From Knoellia subterranea KCTC 19937 (lineage in GTDB: Bacteria > Actinomycetota > Actinomycetes > Actinomycetales > Dermatophilaceae): a stretch of 64,000 nucleotides of DNA. Below are positions 14,793 to 23,554 of the stretch, one piece after another. The translations under genes were made by a program, and so were the position numbers. The stretch is from contig NZ_AVPK01000003.1 in the NCBI RefSeq assembly GCF_000768685.1, positions 186,001 through 250,000 on the forward strand. Direction: 5' to 3'. How positions within the stretch are numbered: position 1 is the stretch's first letter; each line of letters starts with the position of its first letter. The notes beneath the pieces were generated by a model, which saw only the letters and a list, made by a program, of their open reading frames with translations, ran no database searches and had not been told where the DNA came from.

Positions 14793-15977
14793 TCATTCTC
14801 CCATGGTGTCGAAGAGCGCCCTCACCGCCGCGCGGTCGGGCTTGCCGGGCCCTCGAAGCGGGATCGCGGGTACCTTGCGGACCGCTCGGGGCAGGGCGTG
14901 ATCGGCGAGTATGCCGCGGAGCTGATCGCGCAGTCTGCTCACCGTGGGTGCCGCGTGGCCGGGTGCGACGACGAGGGCGAGGGCGATGGTCTCTCCCCAT
15001 TCGGGATCGGGGACTCCGACGGCGACGGCCTCGCTGATGCCGTCGATCCGGGCGACGGCTTCCTCGACGAGGCGGGGTGCGACCTTGAGGCCGCCGGTGT
15101 TGATGAGGTCGTCGATGCGTCCGTCAACGTGGAGGCGGCCCTCGTCGTCGACCTGGCCGATGTCGTCGGTGCGGAACATCGTCGCTGAACGGACGCCGAC
15201 GCCGGGTGGTGAAGGGACGAATGCCGCTGTAGTGAGGGCGGGTTCGCCGAAATAACCGTGCGCGAGGGTTGCGCCGGCGAGGTGGATGCGGCCGTCACCG
15301 TCGAGGAGGACGTCGACGCCGTCGAGTGGGATCGAGTCGTAGACGCAGCCGCCGGCGGTTTCGCTCATGCCGTAGGTCGTGACCGCGTGCACCCCGGCCG
15401 AGGCGGCTCGAGTGAGGAGGTCGGGGTGGGTGGCTGCGCCGCCAATGAGGACTGCGGCGAACCGCGCGAGGCGTTGTGTCGATGCCTCGTCGTCGAGGAG
15501 GCGGGTCAACTGCGTCGGGACGATGGAGACGTAGGTGGGCAGGTCCGTCACGGGCATGGCGTCGACGGTTGTTGCGAAGGTTTCCGGGGTGAAGCCGTTC
15601 GCCAGGTCCATGACGTGCGGTGTCGTGTCCGCCGCGATGGAACGCAGGACGACCTGAAGGCCCGCGATGTGGTGGGCAGGGAGGGTGAGGAGCCACTGGC
15701 CCGGGCCCGAGAGGCAGGCGTGCGTGGCGTCCGCGCTGGCCTGGAGGGCTCGCGTGCCGAGCATCGCCCGCTTGGGTGTCCCGGTCGAACCCGAGGTCCC
15801 GACGACGACGCCGAGGTCTTCCGGAAGGTCCCCGTCCACGGACGGTGAGAGGGCCGGGGGAGGCGAGCCGACGGCATGCGGGGCAATGGGGTGACCGCCC
15901 TCAAGGGCGAGCCGAAGCCGGGGGAGGAGGTCGAGCACCGCGGCGCCTGCGGGTACGGCGAGCGGCTCGATCCTCAT
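14793..15977 (-). CDS. menE: o-Succinylbenzoate-CoA ligase (AMP-binding enzyme)
   Basis: Activates o-succinylbenzoate to its CoA thioester ahead of MenB. At 394 residues it belongs to the short actinobacterial MenE type. Adenylate-forming motifs are VVGTSGSTGTPKRA, TYGMSETAGGCVYD and, near the C-terminus, FRTDDIGQVDDEGRLHVDGR. The catalytic lysine region is RGPGKPDRAAVR. It heads the leftward menE to menA unit. Its start region faces the rightward hypothetical gene at 16024. Confidence 0.92.
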   Translation of the reverse strand: MRIEPLAVPAGAAVLDLLPRLRLALEGGHPIAPHAVGSPPPALSPSVDGDLPEDLGVVVGTSGSTGTPKRAMLGTRALQASADATHACLSGPGQWLLTLPAHHIAGLQVVLRSIAADTTPHVMDLANGFTPETFATTVDAMPVTDLPTYVSIVPTQLTRLLDDEASTQRLARFAAVLIGGAATHPDLLTRAASAGVHAVTTYGMSETAGGCVYDSIPLDGVDVLLDGDGRIHLAGATLAHGYFGEPALTTAAFVPSPPGVGVRSATMFRTDDIGQVDDEGRLHVDGRIDDLINTGGLKVAPRLVEEAVARIDGISEAVAVGVPDPEWGETIALALVVAPGHAAPTVSRLRDQLRGILADHALPRAVRKVPAIPLRGPGKPDRAAVRALFDTMGE

Positions 15978-16023: not shown

Positions 16024-16479
16024 ATGGACCCCGAGTTCGCGGCGTATCTCGAGCGGGTGCGTGCGCACCGCGCCGAGTTGGGTGAGTCGCTGGCCGCCCT
16101 CGATGCGGCGTTGGCGTTGCCCGTGGGGTTGGGGGCGCTGTGGCGGCGTCGCGTCCGGGCTGCTTTGACGGAGCTCGAGCACGACCTGCGCGACCACCGG
16201 TCGATCACAGAGGAGCCGGGTGGGTTGTATGCCGACGCGGTGGCGCGGGCGCCTCGCTTGGCGTCAGTGTCGAAGCTCCAGATGGACGAGCATCTGGACT
16301 TCGTCGAGGTCGTGCAGCGGTTGCTGGGCGAGCGCGATGAGGGGCTCGAGAGCGCGGAAGCCGTTGCGGCACACCGGGAAGCAGCGACCGAGCTCGTGGG
16401 CCGCATCGTTCGACACCGGCAGCGTGGGGCGGACCTGATCTATGAGGCGTACGAGGTCGACATCGGCGGTTCGGGCTGA
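16024..16479 (+). CDS. Conserved-looking helical protein of unknown function
   Basis: I do not recognise this 151-residue protein. It is predominantly charged and alpha-helical, with a His-rich patch (HDLRDHRS and, later, DEHLDFVEVVQRLLGERDEG) that recalls hemerythrin-like four-helix proteins, though the spacing is not diagnostic. The ATG at 16024 is preceded by GGATGGGCGG, a weak ribosome-binding site. It points toward menB, and without the island between them the two genes would be convergent neighbours. Confidence 0.6.
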   Translation: MDPEFAAYLERVRAHRAELGESLAALDAALALPVGLGALWRRRVRAALTELEHDLRDHRSITEEPGGLYADAVARAPRLASVSKLQMDEHLDFVEVVQRLLGERDEGLESAEAVAAHREAATELVGRIVRHRQRGADLIYEAYEVDIGGSG

Positions 16480-16502
16480 GGTCTGGTGCGACTGGACCCC
16501 CC

Positions 16503-16527
16503 GACCCACGAGTTGGGTCAGTGGGTC
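16503..16527. terminator. Hairpin between the 16024 gene and the island
   Basis: GACCCAC (16503-16509) pairs with GTGGGTC (16521-16527). An alternative stem GACCCA/TGGGTC uses 16503-16508 and 16514-16519. It lies just outside the left island repeat and is probably the original terminator between the 16024 gene and menB. No T tract is present. Confidence 0.45.
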
Positions 16528-16545
16528 GCGTCAGCGGGGTTGGTC

Positions 16546-16564
16546 AGAAGTACCAGGGGAAGGG
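16546..16564. other. Left attachment-site repeat (attL)
   Basis: The 19-mer AGAAGTACCAGGGGAAGGG is identical to 21903-21921, which is the 3' coding end of menB. Read on the minus strand this copy still encodes PFPWYF followed by TGA, so it looks like the original end of menB displaced by integration. Confidence 0.8.
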
Positions 16565-16655
16565 CTGGTTCGCACGTATCCGATAATCGAATGCGTTGTG
16601 GACGTTGGTTTTGTAAGCATTATTCCCTGAACGCATGTTGGTGAGGTTGTTGGCG

Positions 16656-17580
16656 CTAGGCCTGGATCGACTCTTCTGTGCACGGTTCGTGCACGGTAGC
16701 GAGCGTCTGCTGGGCCAGCGCGGCTGCCGCGTCCCGGGTGCGGTCCTCTGCGGTGTGCCACAGGTGCAGGTATGTCGAGTGAGTCGTGGTCGTCGAGCCG
16801 TGGCCGAGCGCCTGGGAGACGGCTACAACGTCGCAGCCCGAGGCGATCAGGCCCGACGCGTAGAAGTGCCGCAGGTGGTGCAGTCGAATAGTCGGGGCAC
16901 CTGCATCCTTTCGCGTTGCTCGCCACCGCCACTCCACGGCGTCGTGGTGCCAGGGCCGTCCTTGCTCATCGGCGAACAGCCAGCGGTCGGGGTCGGATGC
17001 CTCGCGATGTTCGGCGATGTGCTCGGCGAGGATCGTGAGTAGTGCATCGGGCAGGTAGACCGTCCGCGCCGACCCGTGCTTCGGACCGGTCACCACCGCA
17101 GTGATGCCACCCGTCGCCTCGACGAGATTCTCGCCTCGCACCAGATCCTCGGCCTTGGCCGGCTGGATCTGTCGATCCACGCGCAGGCTGCGGCGCAGGA
17201 AGTCGATGTCGGCGACCTTCAGGCCGGCTGCTTTGCTGCAGCAGTCGTCCGACGACCTCCGGCGTTGGGATCGCCATCGCCGCGTCGCCCCTCGGCCTCT
17301 GCGGCAGCTTCACCCCTGTGCCGGGGGTCCTCGGCGATGACCTTGTCCGCAACGGCGGCACGCAGCACGCTGCGCACGATGCTGGCCCTGGTGTCGATGG
17401 TGCTCGCTGCCAGTGTGGCGTCCATCTTCTTGACCCAGCTCTCGACGTGCGAGCGGCGCACGGCGTTGAGGGGCGTGTCCTTGAAGGTGGCGCAGCCGAT
17501 CGCAAGGTCAGCGTTCTCGCGGGTGCTCGCCTTCCACAGTTGCCGGCTCTTCCAGTCGTCGTGAGGTTGCCACGCGGCTG
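16656..17580 (-). pseudogene. Tyrosine recombinase (integrase), frameshifted and internally deleted
   Basis: The C-terminal catalytic part (16656 to about 17235) is well preserved: IRLHHLRHFYASGLI, then QALGHGSTTTTHSTYLH with the catalytic His and Tyr. Further upstream the reading frame changes twice. GVKLPQRPRGDAAMAIPTPE is in one phase, and RRSHVESWVKKMDATLAAST plus WQPHDDWKSRQLWK are in another. Between VVGRLL and AAGLKVADIDFLRRSLRVDRQ the usual stretch carrying the first catalytic arginine is missing. The start is also lost. The protein cannot be active, so the island is probably fixed unless another integrase acts in trans. Confidence 0.85.
16674..16699. repeat. Palindrome-containing repeat, left copy
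   Basis: Contains GTGCACG-GTT-CGTGCAC, a perfect 7-bp inverted repeat with a 3-base spacer, within a 26-base sequence repeated at 21837-21862 with one mismatch at the spacer. Both copies lie just inside the island ends in direct orientation. They could be integrase arm sites or operators. The left copy also encodes the last residues of the integrase. Confidence 0.6.
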
Positions 17581-17583
17581 AAC

Positions 17584-17727
17584 ATGCCGGTCGGGACGCT
17601 TCGTTGGTGGCGTCATCGGAAGGTTGGGCCGCGCTCGTTCAAGCTCGGCCGGAGCGTTCGCTACAAGAAGACCGACGTGGATGCCTGGCTCCGCGATCAG
17701 TACGAGGCCGAAGGTGCGTCGGCGTGA
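17584..17727 (+). pseudogene. Excisionase/AlpA-like helix-turn-helix remnant
   Basis: The frame reads MPVGTLRWWRHRKVGPRSF and then SVRYKKTDVDAWL, the second half of a short helix-turn-helix excisionase. In frame upstream, the residues REVATRLN extend the motif back to about 17555, but no start codon follows a credible ribosome-binding site. That upstream DNA also carries the antisense integrase N-terminal region. A front end seems to have been lost at the junction. In related elements xis and int point the same way. Here they are head to head, which suggests an inversion or deletion. Confidence 0.65.
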
Positions 17728-18205
17728 GGAGCCCGGGAAGGACGCTCGTGGACGGCGCGGTCGTGGCGGCCCTCGGCAACGCAGGACGTGGACGCTCGCT
17801 CCGCTCGCTTCCGGTCAGGGGGGAGGGCGCGGATGGCTCTCGGGATGGTCGCCGGGCACGATGCGGGCAGGAACACCCCACGCTGCGGACGCAACACCGT
17901 TCGTGCGGTGCGGCCGGTCCGTTCGCCCTGTTCCCCTATAGGGGAGAACAGGGAACGGCCCGCCCCCGTGGTTGCACGGCGCCCGTTCCCCGTCATTGGA
18001 ACAGCTGGGAACAGAGGAACAACAGGACCCCGTCTTCCAACCTGACCAAGTACATCCGGGCGAGGGACGAGCCCGGGCCGCCCGGAGGGTCCGCCTGGCG
18101 CGCGGACTTGCCCGCGCCGCCCGGAGGGTCCGCCTGGCGCGCGGACTTGCCCGCGCCGCCCGTCCTTGATGCCGACCGGTCTGGCCCGTCGCGGGCGGTG
18201 ATCAC
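17728..18205. other. Noncoding repeat-rich segment of the island
   Basis: No credible gene. An imperfect palindrome at 17926-17953 (CCCTGTTC, then CCCC-TATA-GGGG, then GAACAGGG) is followed by several more GGGAAC/GTTCCC and GGAAC copies up to about 18025, and then by the 39-bp tandem repeats at 18078-18155. This layout upstream of a RepA-like ATPase suggests a replication origin or operator region of the ancestral element. It is inferred from structure only. Confidence 0.5.
18078..18155. repeat. 39-bp tandem repeat, two copies
   Basis: Copies at 18078-18116 and 18117-18155 are identical, and the first seven bases of a third copy follow. Each unit begins CCGCCCGGAGGGTCCGCCTG and contains a GTCCGC/GCGGAC inverted repeat. 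The array lies 50 bases before the ATPase gene. The period is a multiple of three, but the frame it would extend has no recognisable protein. Confidence 0.85.
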
Positions 18206-18775
18206 ATGACTGCCGGCAATGAAGAACGCCGCCCGGGCGGGGCGGCGTCCAAGGTCATCAGCGTGGTGGCGGGTGACACCAAGGATTCTACAACCGGTCA
18301 GTCGTGGCTGCCTGTCGCGCTCGACGGGGTCGTGGCCGGTCTCCAGAACGGCACGCTCAAGAGGCCTGCTCCGACCGTCGGCCGCTTGACCGGCGGCTCC
18401 CATTGGCTGTACGCCGGCCGCACTAACGGGCTCGCTGGCGAGTCCGGGTGCGGCAAGAGTTGGGCCGCGCTCCAGGCCGTCACCACCGAGATGGAGGACG
18501 GGCACACGGCTGTCTTCGTCGATTTCGAGGACGACGAGGTGGGCGTTGTCGCTCGGCTGCTCTCGATGGGTGTGGACCCGGGCGTGATCCAGGCCCGGTT
18601 CGTGTACATCCATCCAGACGAGCGGTTCATCCACGGCAAGCCGTACGTCGACGCGGTTGTGGAACAGAGGAAGCCCAGCCTTTGGGTGATCGACTCGACC
18701 GGCGAGTCGATGGCACTCGAGAGTTGTGACCCCAACTCCGACGACGCCGTCGCCACCCGGTTCCAGCTGAGTTGA
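18206..18775 (+). pseudogene. RepA-like AAA ATPase, C-terminally truncated
   Basis: The first 189 residues resemble the DnaB/RepA-type ATPases of actinobacterial integrative elements. The Walker A motif is GESGCGKSW at 78-86, the first Walker-B-like strand is AVFVDFEDDE, and the second is SLWVIDSTGESM. The family normally continues for roughly another 150-200 residues after DPNSDDAVA. Here the frame ends four residues later, at RFQLS. The break coincides with the start of the ArsC gene four bases on, so this is probably a rearrangement junction. Function is presumably lost. Confidence 0.7.
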
Positions 18776-18779
18776 CCCC

Positions 18780-19136
18780 ATGAGCGATGTCACCGTGCTG
18801 CACAACCCGAAGTGTTCGACCTCCCGCGCCGCCGTCGAGACGATCGCGGGTGCCGGGGTCGCGGCCGAGGTGCACCAGTACCTCAAGGCGCCCCTCGACG
18901 AGGCGGCGCTGCGCGAGCTCATCGGCAAGCTCGAGGACGAGCCGACCGACCTCGTGCGCCGCGACTCCTTCTTCTCGGACCAGGGCCTGACCGACGCCGA
19001 CGTCGCGACGGTCGAGCAGGTCGTCGCCGTCCTCGTCGAGCACCCGCGCCTCATGCAGCGCCCCGTGGTCATCAAGGGCGACCGGGCGATCATCGGTCGG
19101 CCCAAGGACCGGGTTGCTCCCTTCGTCCGGGGCTGA
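18780..19136 (+). CDS. ArsC/Spx-family arsenate reductase-like protein
   Basis: A 118-residue thioredoxin-fold protein of the glutaredoxin-dependent ArsC family. The catalytic cysteine is C12 in HNPKCSTSRAAVE. RPVVIKGDRAIIGRP near the C-terminus carries the arginine that supports oxyanion binding. No ars regulator or efflux gene is nearby, so a role in arsenate resistance is possible but not certain. YfgD/YffB-like housekeeping homologues have the same motifs. It begins right after the truncated ATPase. Confidence 0.82.
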   Translation: MSDVTVLHNPKCSTSRAAVETIAGAGVAAEVHQYLKAPLDEAALRELIGKLEDEPTDLVRRDSFFSDQGLTDADVATVEQVVAVLVEHPRLMQRPVVIKGDRAIIGRPKDRVAPFVRG

Positions 19137-19161
19137 CGCGCCCGAGGACTAGAGTGGAGTC

Positions 19162-19482
19162 ATGATCCTCATCGTCGTGAAGTTTCGCACCAAGCCCGAG
19201 TACACCGAGCGGTGGCCGGAGATCGTGGACGAGTTCACCCGGGCCACGCGCGCCGAGCCGGGCAACATCTTCTTCGAGTGGTCGAGGAGCCTGGAGACCA
19301 AGGACGAGTGGGTGCTCGTCGAGGCCTTCCAGGACGACGCCGCCGAGGCCCACGTCGGCAGTGACCACTTCGCGGCGGCCATGGAGTCGATGCGCCCGGC
19401 GATCACCGAGACCCCGCGCGTCATCAGCCGCACCGTCGAGGGCAGCGGCTGGGACGAGATGGGCGAGCTGAAGGTCGACTGA
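19162..19482 (+). CDS. Antibiotic biosynthesis monooxygenase (ABM) domain protein
   Basis: A 106-residue ferredoxin-like dimeric alpha-beta barrel protein of the ABM/YgiN quinol-monooxygenase superfamily, recognised by ILIVVKFRTKPEY, the central EPGNIFFEWSRSLE and FQDDAAEAHVGSDHFAAA with the conserved histidine. Members oxidise quinols or small aromatics without cofactors, or degrade heme. The substrate here is unknown. It lies 25 bases after the ArsC-like gene and is followed by an excellent terminator. Confidence 0.82.
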   Translation: MILIVVKFRTKPEYTERWPEIVDEFTRATRAEPGNIFFEWSRSLETKDEWVLVEAFQDDAAEAHVGSDHFAAAMESMRPAITETPRVISRTVEGSGWDEMGELKVD

Positions 19483-19499
19483 CCACTCAGCAGGAACTT

Positions 19500-19547
19500 C
19501 CCCGGCCTCGCAGGAGCTTCATCCTCGTGCGAGGCCGGGGATTTTTT
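19500..19547 (+). terminator. Rho-independent terminator after the ABM gene
   Basis: A perfect 13-bp stem (19500-19512 with 19528-19540; left arm CCCCGGCCTCGCA) followed by A and six T residues at 19542-19547. This is the clearest intrinsic terminator in the window. It ends the ArsC-ABM unit before the leftward kinase-like gene. Confidence 0.92.
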
Positions 19548-19561
19548 CGTGACCCGGGACG

Positions 19562-20791
19562 TCACGGGGCGGGTGAGGCGACCCGCCGCAGTGCCCCGTG
19601 GTCGATCAGGTCGGCGACCGCCGCGCCCACGATCCGCTCTGCCTCGGGGTGCTCCCCGAGTTCCGCGACGACGGTCGTGGTGAGGTCGGCGACGGTGACC
19701 GGTTCGCGCGCAGCCCGCCAGGCCACGGCCCCCGGACCGGCCAGGCGAAGGGGGCGTGGCCCGGCAAGCAGCAGCACCTGGCCGTCGCAGGCGATCGCGT
19801 CCGACCACGGCGCCCGGACCACCCGGGGCGGGGCCTGATCCGTGCGCATTCCCCCGGGGGAATGCGCAGTCCGGGGGGTGGGCTCGGGTGCGGAGCCCTC
19901 GTCGTCGCGGGGTAGGCGCTCCTGCGGGCGCGGGGGCAGGTGCTCCCAGGTCGGCGGCTCCACGGGAGCGGCCTGCGCCAGGTGCTCGGCGACGAGCTCG
20001 TGGCAGGTGTCGATCTCGGCGTAGACGAGCCGCGCAGGCGCGCCGCCGGCGGTCACGGCGCGGGCGAGGCGGTCGAGGCCGTCGTCCAGCCACCACGTCG
20101 ACGAGGTCTCCGGGAGCACGGCGAGCAGTTGGTCGACGAGCCCGACCGGCTCGATCCGCGACGAGGTCACCGCGGGGTCGCGGGCGAGGGTGAGCAGGGC
20201 GGCGATCCGCGGCGCGGGCGGGGTCGGGCCCAGACCCGACTTGTCCGGCGACGGCTCCGCGTTGTGCCACCGCTCGGCGGGGTCGATGACGAGCGACAGA
20301 GGCTTGGGGTGCGGCGCGATCCGCCCGTCGCCGCGCAGCACGACCGACTCGTCGGTGACATAGCCGAGCCGCTGGCCGAGGACCGAGGTCGCCGTCGACT
20401 TGCCGCCTCCGGAGGGGGCGACGAGCACGACCGCGCGGCCGTCGGCGTCGGCGAGCGCGGCGGCGTGCAGCAGGGTCACGCGTCCGCGCAGCCGGGTCAG
20501 CCCCCGTCGGGTGATCTCGCGGGAGAGGACATAGGGCAGGCGCTCGAGGTCGCTGGCGACGACCGTGGCTCCCCTCCCGTCGCCGGCCAGCCCGACGCGC
20601 AAGACCTGCGGCTCGTCGTCGAGGAGCAGGGTCGTCGGGTCGGTCGCGAGCGCGGCGCAGCGCCCCCAGCGGGCGCGCATCTCGGCGGCGGCAGCCGCGG
20701 GCAGCGCCGACAGGTCGAGGGTCCACGCGCACCCCATCGTCACGAGGTCCACCACCTCGTCCCCCGCCTCCTGCCCAGCCACCGCGTGCAC
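19562..20791 (-). CDS. HPr kinase-like P-loop protein with PqqD-like C-terminus
   Basis: A protein of up to 409 residues. The centre resembles the ATP-binding domain of HPr kinase-like proteins (LLHAAALAD, then the Walker A motif APSGGGKSTATSVL). A variable linker follows, and the last 80 residues (LRLAGPGAVAWRAAREPVTV) resemble PqqD-like peptide-recognition domains. Such proteins occur with peptide-maturation enzymes, but no precursor peptide or radical-SAM gene is visible here. The start is uncertain: GTG at 20791, GTG at 20782 (better spaced from AAGGGA) or ATG at 20737. A 26-bp palindrome sits in the linker. Confidence 0.65.
   Translation of the reverse strand: MHAVAGQEAGDEVVDLVTMGCAWTLDLSALPAAAAAEMRARWGRCAALATDPTTLLLDDEPQVLRVGLAGDGRGATVVASDLERLPYVLSREITRRGLTRLRGRVTLLHAAALADADGRAVVLVAPSGGGKSTATSVLGQRLGYVTDESVVLRGDGRIAPHPKPLSLVIDPAERWHNAEPSPDKSGLGPTPPAPRIAALLTLARDPAVTSSRIEPVGLVDQLLAVLPETSSTWWLDDGLDRLARAVTAGGAPARLVYAEIDTCHELVAEHLAQAAPVEPPTWEHLPPRPQERLPRDDEGSAPEPTPRTAHSPGGMRTDQAPPRVVRAPWSDAIACDGQVLLLAGPRPLRLAGPGAVAWRAAREPVTVADLTTTVVAELGEHPEAERIVGAAVADLIDHGALRRVASPAP
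19843..19868. repeat. Perfect 26-bp palindrome inside the kinase-like gene
   Basis: The sequence is self-complementary across its whole length with no spacer. Its left half is TGCGCATTCCCCC. It falls in the proline-rich linker of the kinase-like protein (encoding HSPGGM), so it looks like a short palindromic insertion tolerated there. No second copy was seen in the window. Confidence 0.8.
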
Positions 20792-20871
20792 TCCCTTCGC
20801 CGGGCGTCACTCTGCCAGAGAGGCCACGGTGCGGCGACGATCGCCGCCGACCGACCACTAGGCTCGGGCCC

Positions 20872-21327
20872 ATGCCGCGACCGCACGCAGCCGCGATCGT
20901 CGAGGACGCCTGGAACCGCCAGGTGGCCGGCGCCATGCGCCGCCGGGGTTGGGGCACCCGCGTGCTCGCTCACACCGGCTACGGCAGCACCGACCGCATC
21001 CGCGTCCTCGGCCGGGTCCTCATGACCCGGCGCCCCTATGCCCCCGCCGCCGCCGACGCCCGCGCCACGTGGCTGGAGCTGCGCACCGCCGACAACGAGC
21101 GAAGGGGGTGGCGCGTCTTCTTCACCACCCCGGCGGCGGGTGAGCCGGTCACCGTGACGATCGGCGAGCGCGAGTTCCGCACCCGGGTCGATCGCTCCGG
21201 GCTGCTCGACCTGACGATCACGGACCACGGGCTCGAGCCCGGCTGGCACGACCTGAGCATCTCCTCGCCGCGGGCCGCCGACACGACGGCGGCGGTCTTC
21301 GTCGTCGCGCCGGGCGAGACCTTCGGC
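20872..21327 (+). pseudogene. App1-like (DUF2183) protein, N-terminal fragment
   Basis: Residues 1-152 read like the N-terminal half of actinobacterial App1-family phosphatase-like proteins: IVEDAWNRQVAGAMRRRGWG, TGYGSTDRIRVLGRVLMTRR, then a beta-rich domain ending FVVAPGETFG. In intact members this is followed by a catalytic DxDxT motif. Here the frame runs on to 21567 through DNA that is antisense to a methylase fragment and has no similarity to the family. The catalytic half is therefore missing. Confidence 0.65.
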
Positions 21328-21395
21328 CGTCCCGCCGGCGCCACCGGCCCCGACCGACGAACGCACGACCCCCTGGGCCTCGAGCGTCCGATGCC

Positions 21396-21578
21396 CATGG
21401 CGACGGCGGAAGGCAGGGCATCGTTCAATGTCACGGCCCAGCCCCGCGACGCGGCGACGGCCGCTACTGATCCAGTCCCGCAGAAGGCGTCGACGAAGCG
21501 GCCATCGCCCGGATCACCAGCGAGGTCGAGGATCGCGTCCGCCACTCGCGCCTTGTTTCCGATGTAGCGAACTCCCAC
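21396..21578 (-). pseudogene. D12-class DNA adenine methylase, N-terminal fragment
   Basis: The first 61 residues match a D12/Dam-type N6-adenine methyltransferase: RYIGNKARVADAILD, then FVDAFCGTGSVAAVAASRGW (SAM-binding motif I) and TLNDALPSAVAM. A ribosome-binding sequence AAAGGAGGA precedes the GTG start. Past residue 61 the frame enters the antisense of the App1 junction and no methylase motifs (DPPY) follow. The gene was cut at about 21396 by the event that truncated the App1-like gene. Confidence 0.72.
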
Positions 21579-21902
21579 TACTCCTCCTTTGAGCCTCCGC
21601 TCCAGCGGACGCTGCGATTCAACAATGACTTCAACCTATCGGTCTGATCCGACAGGGCCTGAAGCACGCGCGGAGTAGCTCTCGTTGGTTGGACTTGGCT
21701 CTGACTGGCCACCTCCTCCTGAGCATGTGGCCGTAGGACAGGTCCCAACGGATCGCGAGCCGCGGGGCGCGCCGTGGGCGCTCCCGTAACCCCAATGTCG
21801 GCCAGTTCCGCCCAGGGTTGGACCGCGCGCTGAGGATTCTGTGCACGGTGCGTGCACGGTAGAGCTCGAACAAGCCTGCGAACTGCGGAAACGTCGCTCT
21901 CT
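21579..21902. other. Right arm of the island, noncoding
   Basis: No credible gene in these 320 bases. The segment includes the right copy of the palindrome-containing repeat at 21837-21862 (GTGCACG-GTG-CGTGCAC) and ends at the repeat inside menB. Base composition appears less GC-rich than the surroundings. Confidence 0.55.
21837..21862. repeat. Palindrome-containing repeat, right copy
   Basis: Matches 16674-16699 at 25 of 26 bases in the same orientation, the single difference being in the spacer of the GTGCACG/CGTGCAC inverted repeat. It lies 40 bases inside the right attachment repeat. It is a candidate binding site for the element's integrase or excisionase. Confidence 0.6.
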
Positions 21903-22857
21903 AGAAGTACCAGGGGAAGGGAGACCAGTCGGGGTCGCGCTTCTCGAGGAACTGGTCGCGCCCCTCGACGGCCTCGTCGGTCATGTATGCCAGGCGCGTC
22001 GCCTCACCGGCGAACACCTGCTGGCCCATGAGCCCGTCGTCGAGGAGGTTGAACGCGAACTTGAGCATGCGCTGCGCCTGCGGCGACTTCGCCATGATCT
22101 CGCGCGCCACCTGGAGGGCGTCCGACTCGAGTTCGGCGTGGTCGGACACGATGTTGACCGCGCCCATCCGGTGCATGTCCTCAGCCGTGTAGGCGCGGCC
22201 GAGGAAGAAGATCTCGCGGGCGAACTTCTGACCCACCATCTTGGCGAGGTAGGCCGAGCCGTAGCCGCCGTCGAAGGAGCCCACGTCGGCGTCCGTCTGC
22301 TTGAAGCGCGCGCGCTCGCGCGAGGCCATCGTCATGTCACACACGACGTGGAGCGAGTGACCGCCGCCGGCCGCCCATCCGTTGACGAGGCAGATGACGA
22401 CCTTGGGCATCGTGCGGATGAGGCGCTGGACCTCGAGGATGTGGAGGCGCCCGCCCTCGGCCTTCACGCGGCGCTCGTCGACGCCGCCGGCGGTGAGGTC
22501 GTCGGTGCCCTCCTGCGCGTACTGGTAGCCCGAGCGTCCACGGATCCGCTGGTCGCCGCCAGTGCAGAACGCCCAGCCGGCGGTCTCCTTCGAGGATCCC
22601 TCGCGCGGCGACGGCCCGTTGCCGGTGAGCAGCACGACGCCGACGTCGGGGGTGCGGCGGGCGTGGTCGAGCGCGCGGTAGAGCTCGTCGACCGTGTGCG
22701 GGCGGAACGCGTTGAGCACGTCGGGCCGGTCGAACGCGATGCGCACACAGCCCAGGTCCTTGGCCCGGTGGTAGGTGATGTCGGTGAAGTCGAAGCCCTC
22801 GACCTCATCCCACGCCGCCGGGTCGAACGTCTCACTCACGCCATCGATCGCACTCAC
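21901..22857 (-). CDS. menB: 1,4-dihydroxy-2-naphthoyl-CoA synthase
   Basis: A crotonase-fold enzyme of 318 residues that cyclises o-succinylbenzoyl-CoA to 1,4-dihydroxy-2-naphthoyl-CoA. Recognisable blocks are FDRPDVLNAFRPHTVDEL, the oxyanion-hole loop around WAFCTGGDQRIRG, VNGWAAGGGHSLHVVCDMT and the family C-terminus WSPFPWYF. The last six codons and the stop are the right copy of the island attachment repeat. The gene was remade by the incoming element and now ends with TAG, where the displaced original copy ends with TGA. The product is expected to be unchanged and functional. Confidence 0.96.
   Translation of the reverse strand: MSAIDGVSETFDPAAWDEVEGFDFTDITYHRAKDLGCVRIAFDRPDVLNAFRPHTVDELYRALDHARRTPDVGVVLLTGNGPSPREGSSKETAGWAFCTGGDQRIRGRSGYQYAQEGTDDLTAGGVDERRVKAEGGRLHILEVQRLIRTMPKVVICLVNGWAAGGGHSLHVVCDMTMASRERARFKQTDADVGSFDGGYGSAYLAKMVGQKFAREIFFLGRAYTAEDMHRMGAVNIVSDHAELESDALQVAREIMAKSPQAQRMLKFAFNLLDDGLMGQQVFAGEATRLAYMTDEAVEGRDQFLEKRDPDWSPFPWYF
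21903..21921. other. Right attachment-site repeat (attR) in the menB 3' end
   Basis: An exact 19-base copy of 16546-16564, lying over the last codons of menB. Integration into the 3' end of an essential gene, with restoration of its reading frame, is typical of tyrosine integrases. Confidence 0.8.
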
Positions 22858-22889: not shown

Positions 22890-23315
22890 CTAGCCGAGGA
22901 TCGTGACATCGAGATCGGGGAAGCGCCAGAAGCCGCGGTCATAGGTCACGAAGCGCGCCCCCAGCGCCGTCGCTTGAGCAGTCAGCCAGACATCGCTGAG
23001 GTCCGAACCACGCATCCCCAACTGCATGACCAGGTCGTGGAAATGACCCCACGCCGCGGGCATCGGGGGAGTCGAGAGGGCCGCTGGAGCGCCGCGGACG
23101 GCCGCGCAGAATTCGAGGGCCTCTTCGGGGCGCAACGGACTCGACATGAGCCGTGGATGGGTCACGATGCGGGCGGTGCTCACGAGGGTGGACTCGAGGA
23201 CAGCCACCGTCTCTGCCCCGCCCAGAGCTGCCTCGAGCACCTCTCGTGCCTCGGCGTGGTGCTCACACGTGCGGTCGATCGCGTAGACGAATACGTTGAC
23301 GTCGAAGGCGATCAC
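22890..23315 (-). CDS. PIN-domain ribonuclease toxin (VapC family)
   Basis: A 141-residue PIN domain with the expected acidic residues: D5 (MIAFDVNVFVYAID), E41 (LESTLVSTARI), D105/D108 (GSDLSDVWLTAQA) and D126 (VTYDRGFW). Such toxins cleave RNA and are neutralised by the cognate antitoxin, here the upstream gene that overlaps it by four bases. The target RNA cannot be predicted. Confidence 0.88.
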   Translation of the reverse strand: MIAFDVNVFVYAIDRTCEHHAEAREVLEAALGGAETVAVLESTLVSTARIVTHPRLMSSPLRPEEALEFCAAVRGAPAALSTPPMPAAWGHFHDLVMQLGMRGSDLSDVWLTAQATALGARFVTYDRGFWRFPDLDVTILG

Positions 23316-23554
23316 GCGATCGGCTCGTTGTCACCCAATGCTTCGGCCAGCGCCTCCTTGTCGAGGATGTCCACGAGGGCGCCGCCACCTCCGAACGTGG
23401 GCAGCGTGAAGTTCGCCATCTCCGACGACCGAGCCCGCACCAGGTGCTCTCGCAGGGCCTCCTCGAGGACGCTGCTGACCGTCCGGTCGTCGCGTGCAGC
23501 TTCGAGACGAGCGGCCTTGAGCAGGTCGTCAGCAATGGTCACGGTCGTACGCAT
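23312..23554 (-). CDS. VapB-type ribbon-helix-helix antitoxin
   Basis: An 80-residue protein. Residues 1-40 (MRTTVTIADDLLKAARLEAA) form a ribbon-helix-helix DNA-binding domain, and the C-terminal segment (FGGGGALVDILDKEALAEAL) is the likely toxin-binding tail. Its stop overlaps the toxin start. A perfect 22-bp palindrome 17 bases upstream of the ATG is the probable autoregulatory operator. Confidence 0.85.
   Translation of the reverse strand: MRTTVTIADDLLKAARLEAARDDRTVSSVLEEALREHLVRARSSEMANFTLPTFGGGGALVDILDKEALAEALGDNEPIA

Follow-up and report, generated by a model that had tools for sequence, protein, structure and literature searches.

In Knoellia subterranea KCTC 19937, the last codons of the menaquinone gene menB occur a second time 5.4 kb downstream. 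We analysed this region within a 64 kb stretch of DNA (contig NZ_AVPK01000003.1, positions 186,001 to 250,000), called the window here, for which an earlier note had proposed a fossil integrative element in the 3' end of menB. All coordinates are those of the window. The left end of the element, on the side of orf16024 and menE, is termed distal and the right end, on the side of menB, proximal. The following features lie at the two ends.

21901..22857, minus strand: menB (naphthoate synthase), stop codon TAG; its 3' end is the putative integration site, apparently rebuilt by the element
21903..21921, minus strand: proximal core, 19 bp, at the junction of element and menB
16546..16564, minus strand: distal core, 19 bp, followed by TGA and host downstream sequence
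16024..16479, plus strand: orf16024, the host gene that adjoins menB in empty sites; no Pfam match
14793..15977, minus strand: menE, host flank, named from its position and AMP-binding domains

The direct repeat (CCCTTCCCCTGGTACTTCT, minus strand) has identical copies at 16546-16564 and 21903-21921, 5,357 bp apart from start to start. With up to 3 mismatches allowed, the core 19-mer matched nowhere else in the window, and two copies were found in none of 100 shuffles. The right core comprises the last six menB codons (PFPWYF) and the T of the TAG stop codon, and the left core encodes PFPWYF followed by a TGA. The menB protein is 95% identical to a K. remsis protein and its reading frame is open to its end; the gene was named from its kin and the men cluster, Pfam itself assigning ECH_1 (E=6.6e-49). 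When the flanks were joined in silico, an open menB end was obtained, as the earlier note had predicted, and orf16024 ended 66 bp past the core. The hairpin claimed near orf16024 was found in part: a 7-bp stem (GACCCAC/GTGGGTC) is visible by eye at about 16503-16527, but it has no T run, and a terminator scan of 16300-16700 found none. A tRNA gene as the site of the element was considered and rejected, since ARAGORN found none in the window and 16400-22000 gave no Rfam match.

Inside the two cores, remnants of the element's own genes were recognised.

16656..17563, minus strand: tyrosine integrase remnant, whose open C-terminal part matches PF00589 (E=6.6e-17)
17563..17727, plus strand: excisionase-like HTH_17 gene, Pfam HTH_17 E=1.8e-10, first ~25 codons lost
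18176..18770, plus strand: AAA_25/RecA-like ATPase fragment, cut at 18770
21328..21578, minus strand: N-terminal remnant of a D12-class adenine DNA methyltransferase, MethyltransfD12 E=1.9e-6, residues 5-57

The integrase remnant adjoins the distal core at a distance of 92 bp and lies 5 kb from menB. Compared with the integrase of its nearest kin, in the family genome G086, it has lost residues 1-77 and a run of about 22 residues with FAGLRR at its end, and its frame shifts near 17317; we take the missing run to be the Arg-I region of tyrosine integrases. With the N-terminus, the Arg-I segment and the frame gone, the locus was classed as a fossil and not as a working tyrosine-integrase element. 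The excisionase match starts at residue 26 of the G086 protein and at base 17563, where the integrase match also starts, so that one deletion probably took both heads. The ATPase fragment matches residues 69-267 of a 496-residue frame in G086 with 65% identity. G086 has the same layout as the window: its menB stops with TAG, a gene for a DNA methylase lies at the menB end, and the ATPase, excisionase and integrase genes lie at the distal end. The methylase belongs to a different class, N6_N4_Mtase, with an E value of 1.5e-5 slightly short of the curated cut-off. No FtsK/SpoIIIE translocase, Rep/Prim-Pol or TrwC/MobF relaxase was found among the window proteins scanned, and no capsid, terminase or tail gene among those scanned with Pfam; the middle of the element is gone. 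Two 39-bp tandem copies, 92% identical, lie at 18065-18142 upstream of the ATPase gene.

A second repeat, ACCGTGCAC-NN-ACCGTGCAC, was found just inside both ends of the element. It has only two exact matches in the window, and a third place has 3 mismatches.

21841..21860, minus strand: proximal arm pair ACCGTGCAC, 11-bp period
16678..16697, minus strand: distal arm pair ACCGTGCAC, 11-bp period, repeats starting 133 and 122 bp before the distal core
21875..21893, minus strand: post-core motif in a degenerate form, GTTTCCGCAGTTCGCAGG; other elements have GCAGGTCAG or similar ~16 bp past the menB stop

Their position and period make the paired repeats candidate arm sites of the integrase.

The menB site was then compared in 80 named menB loci, some of them shortened by contig ends, in 186 genomes of the family and in 396 genomes of the order. 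In the genus group, the sites between menB and orf16024 are empty in five of nine genomes (L009, L012, L013, L014, and G008 at L154), as expected from the earlier note; the first four loci were assigned to genomes by their coordinates. The other four are those of the window, K. sinensis, Janibacter sp. HTCC2649 and K. flava. K. sinensis has an 8.4 kb insert at menB with type I restriction genes and no integrase signature found, and Janibacter sp. HTCC2649, which groups with Knoellia here, a 1.9 kb insert at the menB site. In the named loci, orf16024 is downstream of menB in 20 of 80, within 300 bp in 10 of these 20, and four of the ten are Knoellia. The menB tail was readable in 77 of the 80, with TGA in 75, TAA in L027 and TAG in L072 (L041, L079 and L081 gave no pattern match); in both loci with a stop other than TGA, that codon is followed at a distance of ~16 bp by the post-core motif (GCAGGTCAG or CAGGTCA). 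The outcome that would have spoken against an element, the same intervening genes at this site in relatives that lack an integrase or the repeat, was not seen: the AAA, ArsC, ABM, HprK-like, App1-like and methyltransferase genes, of which the middle four are described below, had no tblastn match (E<=1e-4) around menB in the 80 named loci.

Further elements that share the menB attachment site were present in relatives, another prediction of the earlier note. The menB tail (<=1 mismatch) was found in 145 of the 186 family genomes and in at least two places in six (G000, G002, G050, G051, G069, G102). A separate 27-mer probe for second tails was too long to detect 19-bp cores. In G050, two menB-tail copies 22.8 kb apart enclose an integrase, type I restriction genes and a Toprim/AAA protein, and menE-menA follows on the outside. 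Downstream of menB, I. chromatireducens (G051) has a pair of small frames (one of them ParE-like), an integrase, an excisionase-like gene and a TrwC relaxase (E=1.6e-49; homologues in G102 and G104), and the distal core is on another contig, beside menE. The second menB-tail place of G102, 0.87 Mb off and on the other strand, was not taken as an element end. A strict core-plus-motif pattern matched only K. flava among the 396 genomes of the order; this pattern misses the window, and most carriers are outside that sample.

Some menB neighbourhoods of other kinds were noted. Positions 22890-23554 of the window, directly upstream of menB, contain a gene with a PIN domain (E=3e-7) and a small partner frame; the gene is kept in four of the 80 named loci (L009, L010, L029, L031) and in G008. 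Type I restriction-modification islands lie directly downstream of menB in K. sinensis (L010 10900-19400) and in the Janibacter-group genome G069 (L151 8400-17000), where a second menB tail lies beyond the island; their HsdM and HsdR proteins are similar, and neither island gave an integrase hit. In K. flava, the menB tail stands at contig ends in several contexts, spread over several contigs (L147 1-4691, L146, L079); one of these contexts continues into orf16024, another into a segment that encodes a histidine kinase and a response regulator.

To place the integrase, the G051 protein was used as a query and matched 25 of the 186 family genomes at E<=1e-50, in 27 places. Seven of these are at menB (the window, G051, G102, G050, G104, a fragment in G165, and G086), within 2 kb where both are on one contig, the window integrase excepted. 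Eight are at the 3' end of ychF (G180, G148, G085 with a gap of ~630 bp, G142, G176, G139, G178, G053), one is at yajQ (G070) and one at another gene (G015); seven had no assigned target and three served as outgroups without target analysis. The names YchF and YajQ were given by Pfam for one example each (YchF-GTPase_C and DUF520, which we take to be YajQ). The integrase of the window, represented by its 174-residue open piece, and the other six located at menB that were long enough for the tree form one clade with a support of 100/99 in both the 27-row and the 41-row tree, the latter including 11 integrases without an assigned target. The menB label needs 1 change on the tree, a value as low as in none of 500 shuffles. 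The ychF-targeting integrases do not form one clade (approximately unbiased test, p = 1.75e-45; the group was defined with an earlier tree already known), so that the rule of one target for one clade fails outside menB and a group at a DUF5302 gene.

In the order, 17 of the 396 genomes matched at E<=1e-75 and yielded 14 new loci, all outside the family: three at yajQ, one at ychF, four at the DUF5302 gene, two at a gene ending in EIWLNSL or similar, and four without an assigned target. None of the 14 has menB within the flank of up to 1.5 kb, a range from which more distant elements would escape. In the phage and plasmid collections, all matches (1,212 and 416 records) had less than 60% identity, and ~30% or less among the best 12 of each. 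The 3' ends of protein genes proved to be common targets in the wider clan, with sister integrases at the ends of ychF and yajQ; the earlier note had called menB, presumed there to be essential, an unusual target compared with tRNA genes. The integrases at the ychF end lie in the loci L186, L190-L195, L201 and L255, several with a CTGACC(TG) motif beside the stop, and those at the yajQ 3' end in several families of the order (L197, L261, L262, L263). The four integrases of one genus code (L256, L258, L260, L265) lie beside the short DUF5302 gene (Pfam for one), which ends in ATARQEFRRKSG. At L266, a ychF-like tail lies downstream in the opposite orientation, possibly the layout of the window.

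The arm repeats recur at other menB loci. Among distinct flanks, an exact 8-mer repeat at a lag of 11 bp follows the menB core in 6 of the 12 that have the post-core motif versus 0 of the 97 that lack it, the motif pattern having been widened after the window and G104 had been seen. One of the 12, from Brevibacterium, has the motif at a different spacing and is probably a false positive. Of nine element flanks chosen for comparison, seven have the lag-11 repeat; the two that lack it, even with one mismatch allowed, are those of G102 and A. piscis. On the menB side the distance from the first base of the stop codon to the start of the repeats is 43-46 bp, and 59 bp in G104. All four integrase-bearing elements that were read at both ends also have an arm pair on the distal side, of the type found near menB and starting 121-139 bp before the core; it is exact in the window and G050 and has one mismatch in G051 and G086. 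The letters of the arms vary among the elements (GTGCAC, GGGCGCA, GTCCGCAG and GATGTGGC types).

The doubled menB tail could also have arisen by chance or by homology-driven duplication with no integrase involved. Tails of menB can indeed double without a visible integrase: in G069 the second tail (91 of 94 bases identical) is beside the restriction island and the stretch read gave no integrase hit, and the doubled tails of K. flava come with neither arms nor integrase. In the window, however, the identity covers exactly the 19-bp core and nothing more, matching arm pairs are present at both ends and the integrase remnant belongs to the menB clade. We therefore consider a duplication of this kind hardly credible for the window.

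The interior of the element is of a different origin and contains the following features.

18771..21327, plus strand: segment of Janibacter-type chromosomal DNA, colinear and recognised by DNA identity, apparently in place of the element's interior
18780..19136, plus strand: ArsC-family (glutaredoxin-type arsenate reductase-like) gene, open frame, Pfam ArsC E=2.6e-14
19162..19482, plus strand: gene with an antibiotic biosynthesis monooxygenase (ABM) domain, Pfam ABM E=4.8e-20
19562..20791, minus strand: HprK-like ATPase gene; match to HprK-related kinase A 30.5 of 200 bits, far under the cut-off
20872..21327, plus strand: App1-type gene truncated at about codon 152, 5' part present

Against TIGR00014, the ArsC-family gene scored 99.0 bits, below the cut-off of 106.05. 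The block is 92.4% identical to the Janibacter-group genome G062 over 2,567 aligned columns and 90.0% to G067 over 2,592, and all 16 genomes of the Janibacter-group genus code g27 match part of it at E<=1e-40; the menB coordinates of these genomes coincide with those in named Janibacter records. Its junctions are sharp: the likeness to the G086 ATPase stops at 18770, and the Janibacter-group likeness starts at 18771 and stops at 21327 inside the App1-type gene. The methyltransferase remnant is cut somewhere before or at this right junction. Two Janibacter-group counterparts of the App1-type gene have 353 and 355 codons, and in the G062 protein APP1_cat starts at residue 151 (E=3.6e-48); cut at ~codon 152, the gene of the window is without its catalytic domain. 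In G062, the App1-type gene is complete, and the block has as its neighbours a formamidopyrimidine-DNA-glycosylase gene and a gene of the exonuclease/endonuclease family. The same K. subterranea genome has a divergent HprK-like counterpart beside an App1-like gene on contig C30.

Two origins of the block were rejected. It is not the ancestral menB neighbourhood, as the run from ArsC to App1 had no match around menB in any of the 80 named loci and is found elsewhere in Janibacter-group chromosomes. It is also not a recent duplicate of the HprK/App1 pair on C30, to which it has just 66-73% DNA identity over short pieces. The identity to the Janibacter group, together with the far more distant host pair, points to a Janibacter-like genome as the source. 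Sharp junctions and a high identity to another genus would also be expected from an assembly artefact, in which a misjoined contaminant Janibacter sequence forms the block. However, the genome is listed with a completeness of 99.99% and a contamination of 0.04%, the block is enclosed in a contig of 355,889 bp and the nearest of the 186 family genomes searched is just 92% identical to it. Such an artefact is very unlikely.

Alternatively, the element may have gained these genes in a Janibacter-like host and brought them to Knoellia as cargo, with no replacement after integration. The block does lie between the two cores and has its closest copies in the Janibacter group (G062 92%, G067 90%). 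On the other side, it starts inside the AAA gene and ends where the App1-type gene and the methyltransferase are both cut. Since the junctions cut all three genes, the block arose by breaking the element; whether before or after its arrival is not separable from one genome, and we regard transport as cargo as possible, though not as the probable course. As the sequences stand, the interior appears to be a Janibacter-type chromosomal segment that replaced the element's own middle.

Taken together, the core repeat, the integrase, excisionase and AAA remnants, the arm pairs, the menB clade and the empty sites bear out the proposal of a fossil in the menB 3' end. The locus is very probably an immobile remnant of a site-specific integrative element that has decayed and had its middle exchanged for Janibacter-type chromosome. 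Several points weigh against this reading. The layout is not uniform, with the integrase at the far end in the window and G086 and on the menB side, pointing at menB, in G051, G050, G102 and G104 and as fragments also in L034 and G165. The L034 fragments, which lie beside menB, did not have the length needed for the tree and were left out. The two ends of the G051 and of the G086 elements are on separate contigs and were joined by inference. G086 was assigned to menB because one of its contigs has a menB-like core (1 mismatch in 17) beside the integrase and another has the post-core motif behind menB. In the window this motif is degenerate, and if the window and G104 are counted as motif-less, the lag-11 repeat is found in 4 of 10 versus 2 of 99 flanks. 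Finally, the doubled menB tails without an integrase hit, in K. flava and G069, have lag-11 arms at neither end.

The following course of events best accounts for these features. A tyrosine integrase binding core and arm sites would have recombined the attachment site of the element (attP) with the last 19 bp of menB. Since attP brought its own copy of the last codons and a stop, menB would have regained a complete end with TAG as its stop, the old TGA-bearing tail being displaced by 5.4 kb. During decay, one deletion would have removed the heads of the integrase and excisionase genes and another the Arg-I segment of the integrase; a frameshift was presumably added, and 2.56 kb of Janibacter-type chromosome would have taken the place of the element's middle. 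Both the loss of mobility and the order in which these steps occurred are our inference, and we can only guess that the Janibacter-type piece entered by illegitimate recombination with foreign DNA.

The menB loci tentatively suggest a more general arrangement, a shared lock with private keys: an integrase clade of one actinobacterial family would use one docking site at menB and one attP geometry, with arm letters specific to each element, and target switching would be a change in core recognition. The geometry might consist of an arm pair starting ~120-140 bp before the core and another ~43 bp after it, with an 11-bp period; we put this forward with the same reserve. Each integrase would be restricted by the arms to its own ends, so that different elements could succeed each other at menB without cross-excision.

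Several known systems resemble the element in part. Like it, the actinomycete integrative and conjugative elements (AICEs, e.g. pSAM2) are actinobacterial, have a tyrosine integrase and insert at the 3' end of a gene; according to an AICE survey, they differ in their target, as the vast majority of those with a tyrosine integrase are in tRNA genes, the pSLS sub-family excepted (PMC3218068). The integrase family that targets dusA is likewise tied to one conserved protein-coding gene, but it is reported to use the 5' end and many other bacteria (PMC4482086), whereas the site here is the 3' end of menB. SGI1-type islands, described in PMC8409611, are also integrative islands at the 3' end of a housekeeping protein gene, trmE; they differ in gene and hosts, and the likeness is one of target site. 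The ychF neighbourhood, a target of the sister integrases, is used in Streptococcus by the pneumococcal prophage group PPH005, whose core is listed between a DUF951 gene and ychF (PMC8637289), a likeness to the clan by locus. No report of menB as an integration target was found in the literature searched, among the matches listed and with subscription journals mostly outside the scope; the one menB paper among them concerns a plasmid-borne menB homologue (PMC12803027). The TIGER/Islander resource, with about 1.75 million genomic islands (PMC12424338), may already include some of these elements. What appears to be new here is the interior, 92% identical to Janibacter-type chromosome, and the sister integrases at the 3' ends of ychF and yajQ.

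At the sequence level, our results define a clade of integrases associated with a menaquinone gene and, around it, a wider clan associated with the 3' ends of conserved protein genes. The attP anatomy is legible enough for arm and core specificity to be tested separately, and such integrases are candidate tools for the insertion of DNA at a conserved chromosomal site in actinobacteria. If the shared arrangement of docking site and arms is true, moves among menB, ychF, yajQ, the DUF5302 gene and other gene ends would be changes in core recognition with the rest of attP kept. The fossil in K. subterranea itself would be an example of an integrated element that was broken and then filled with chromosomal DNA resembling that of another genus.

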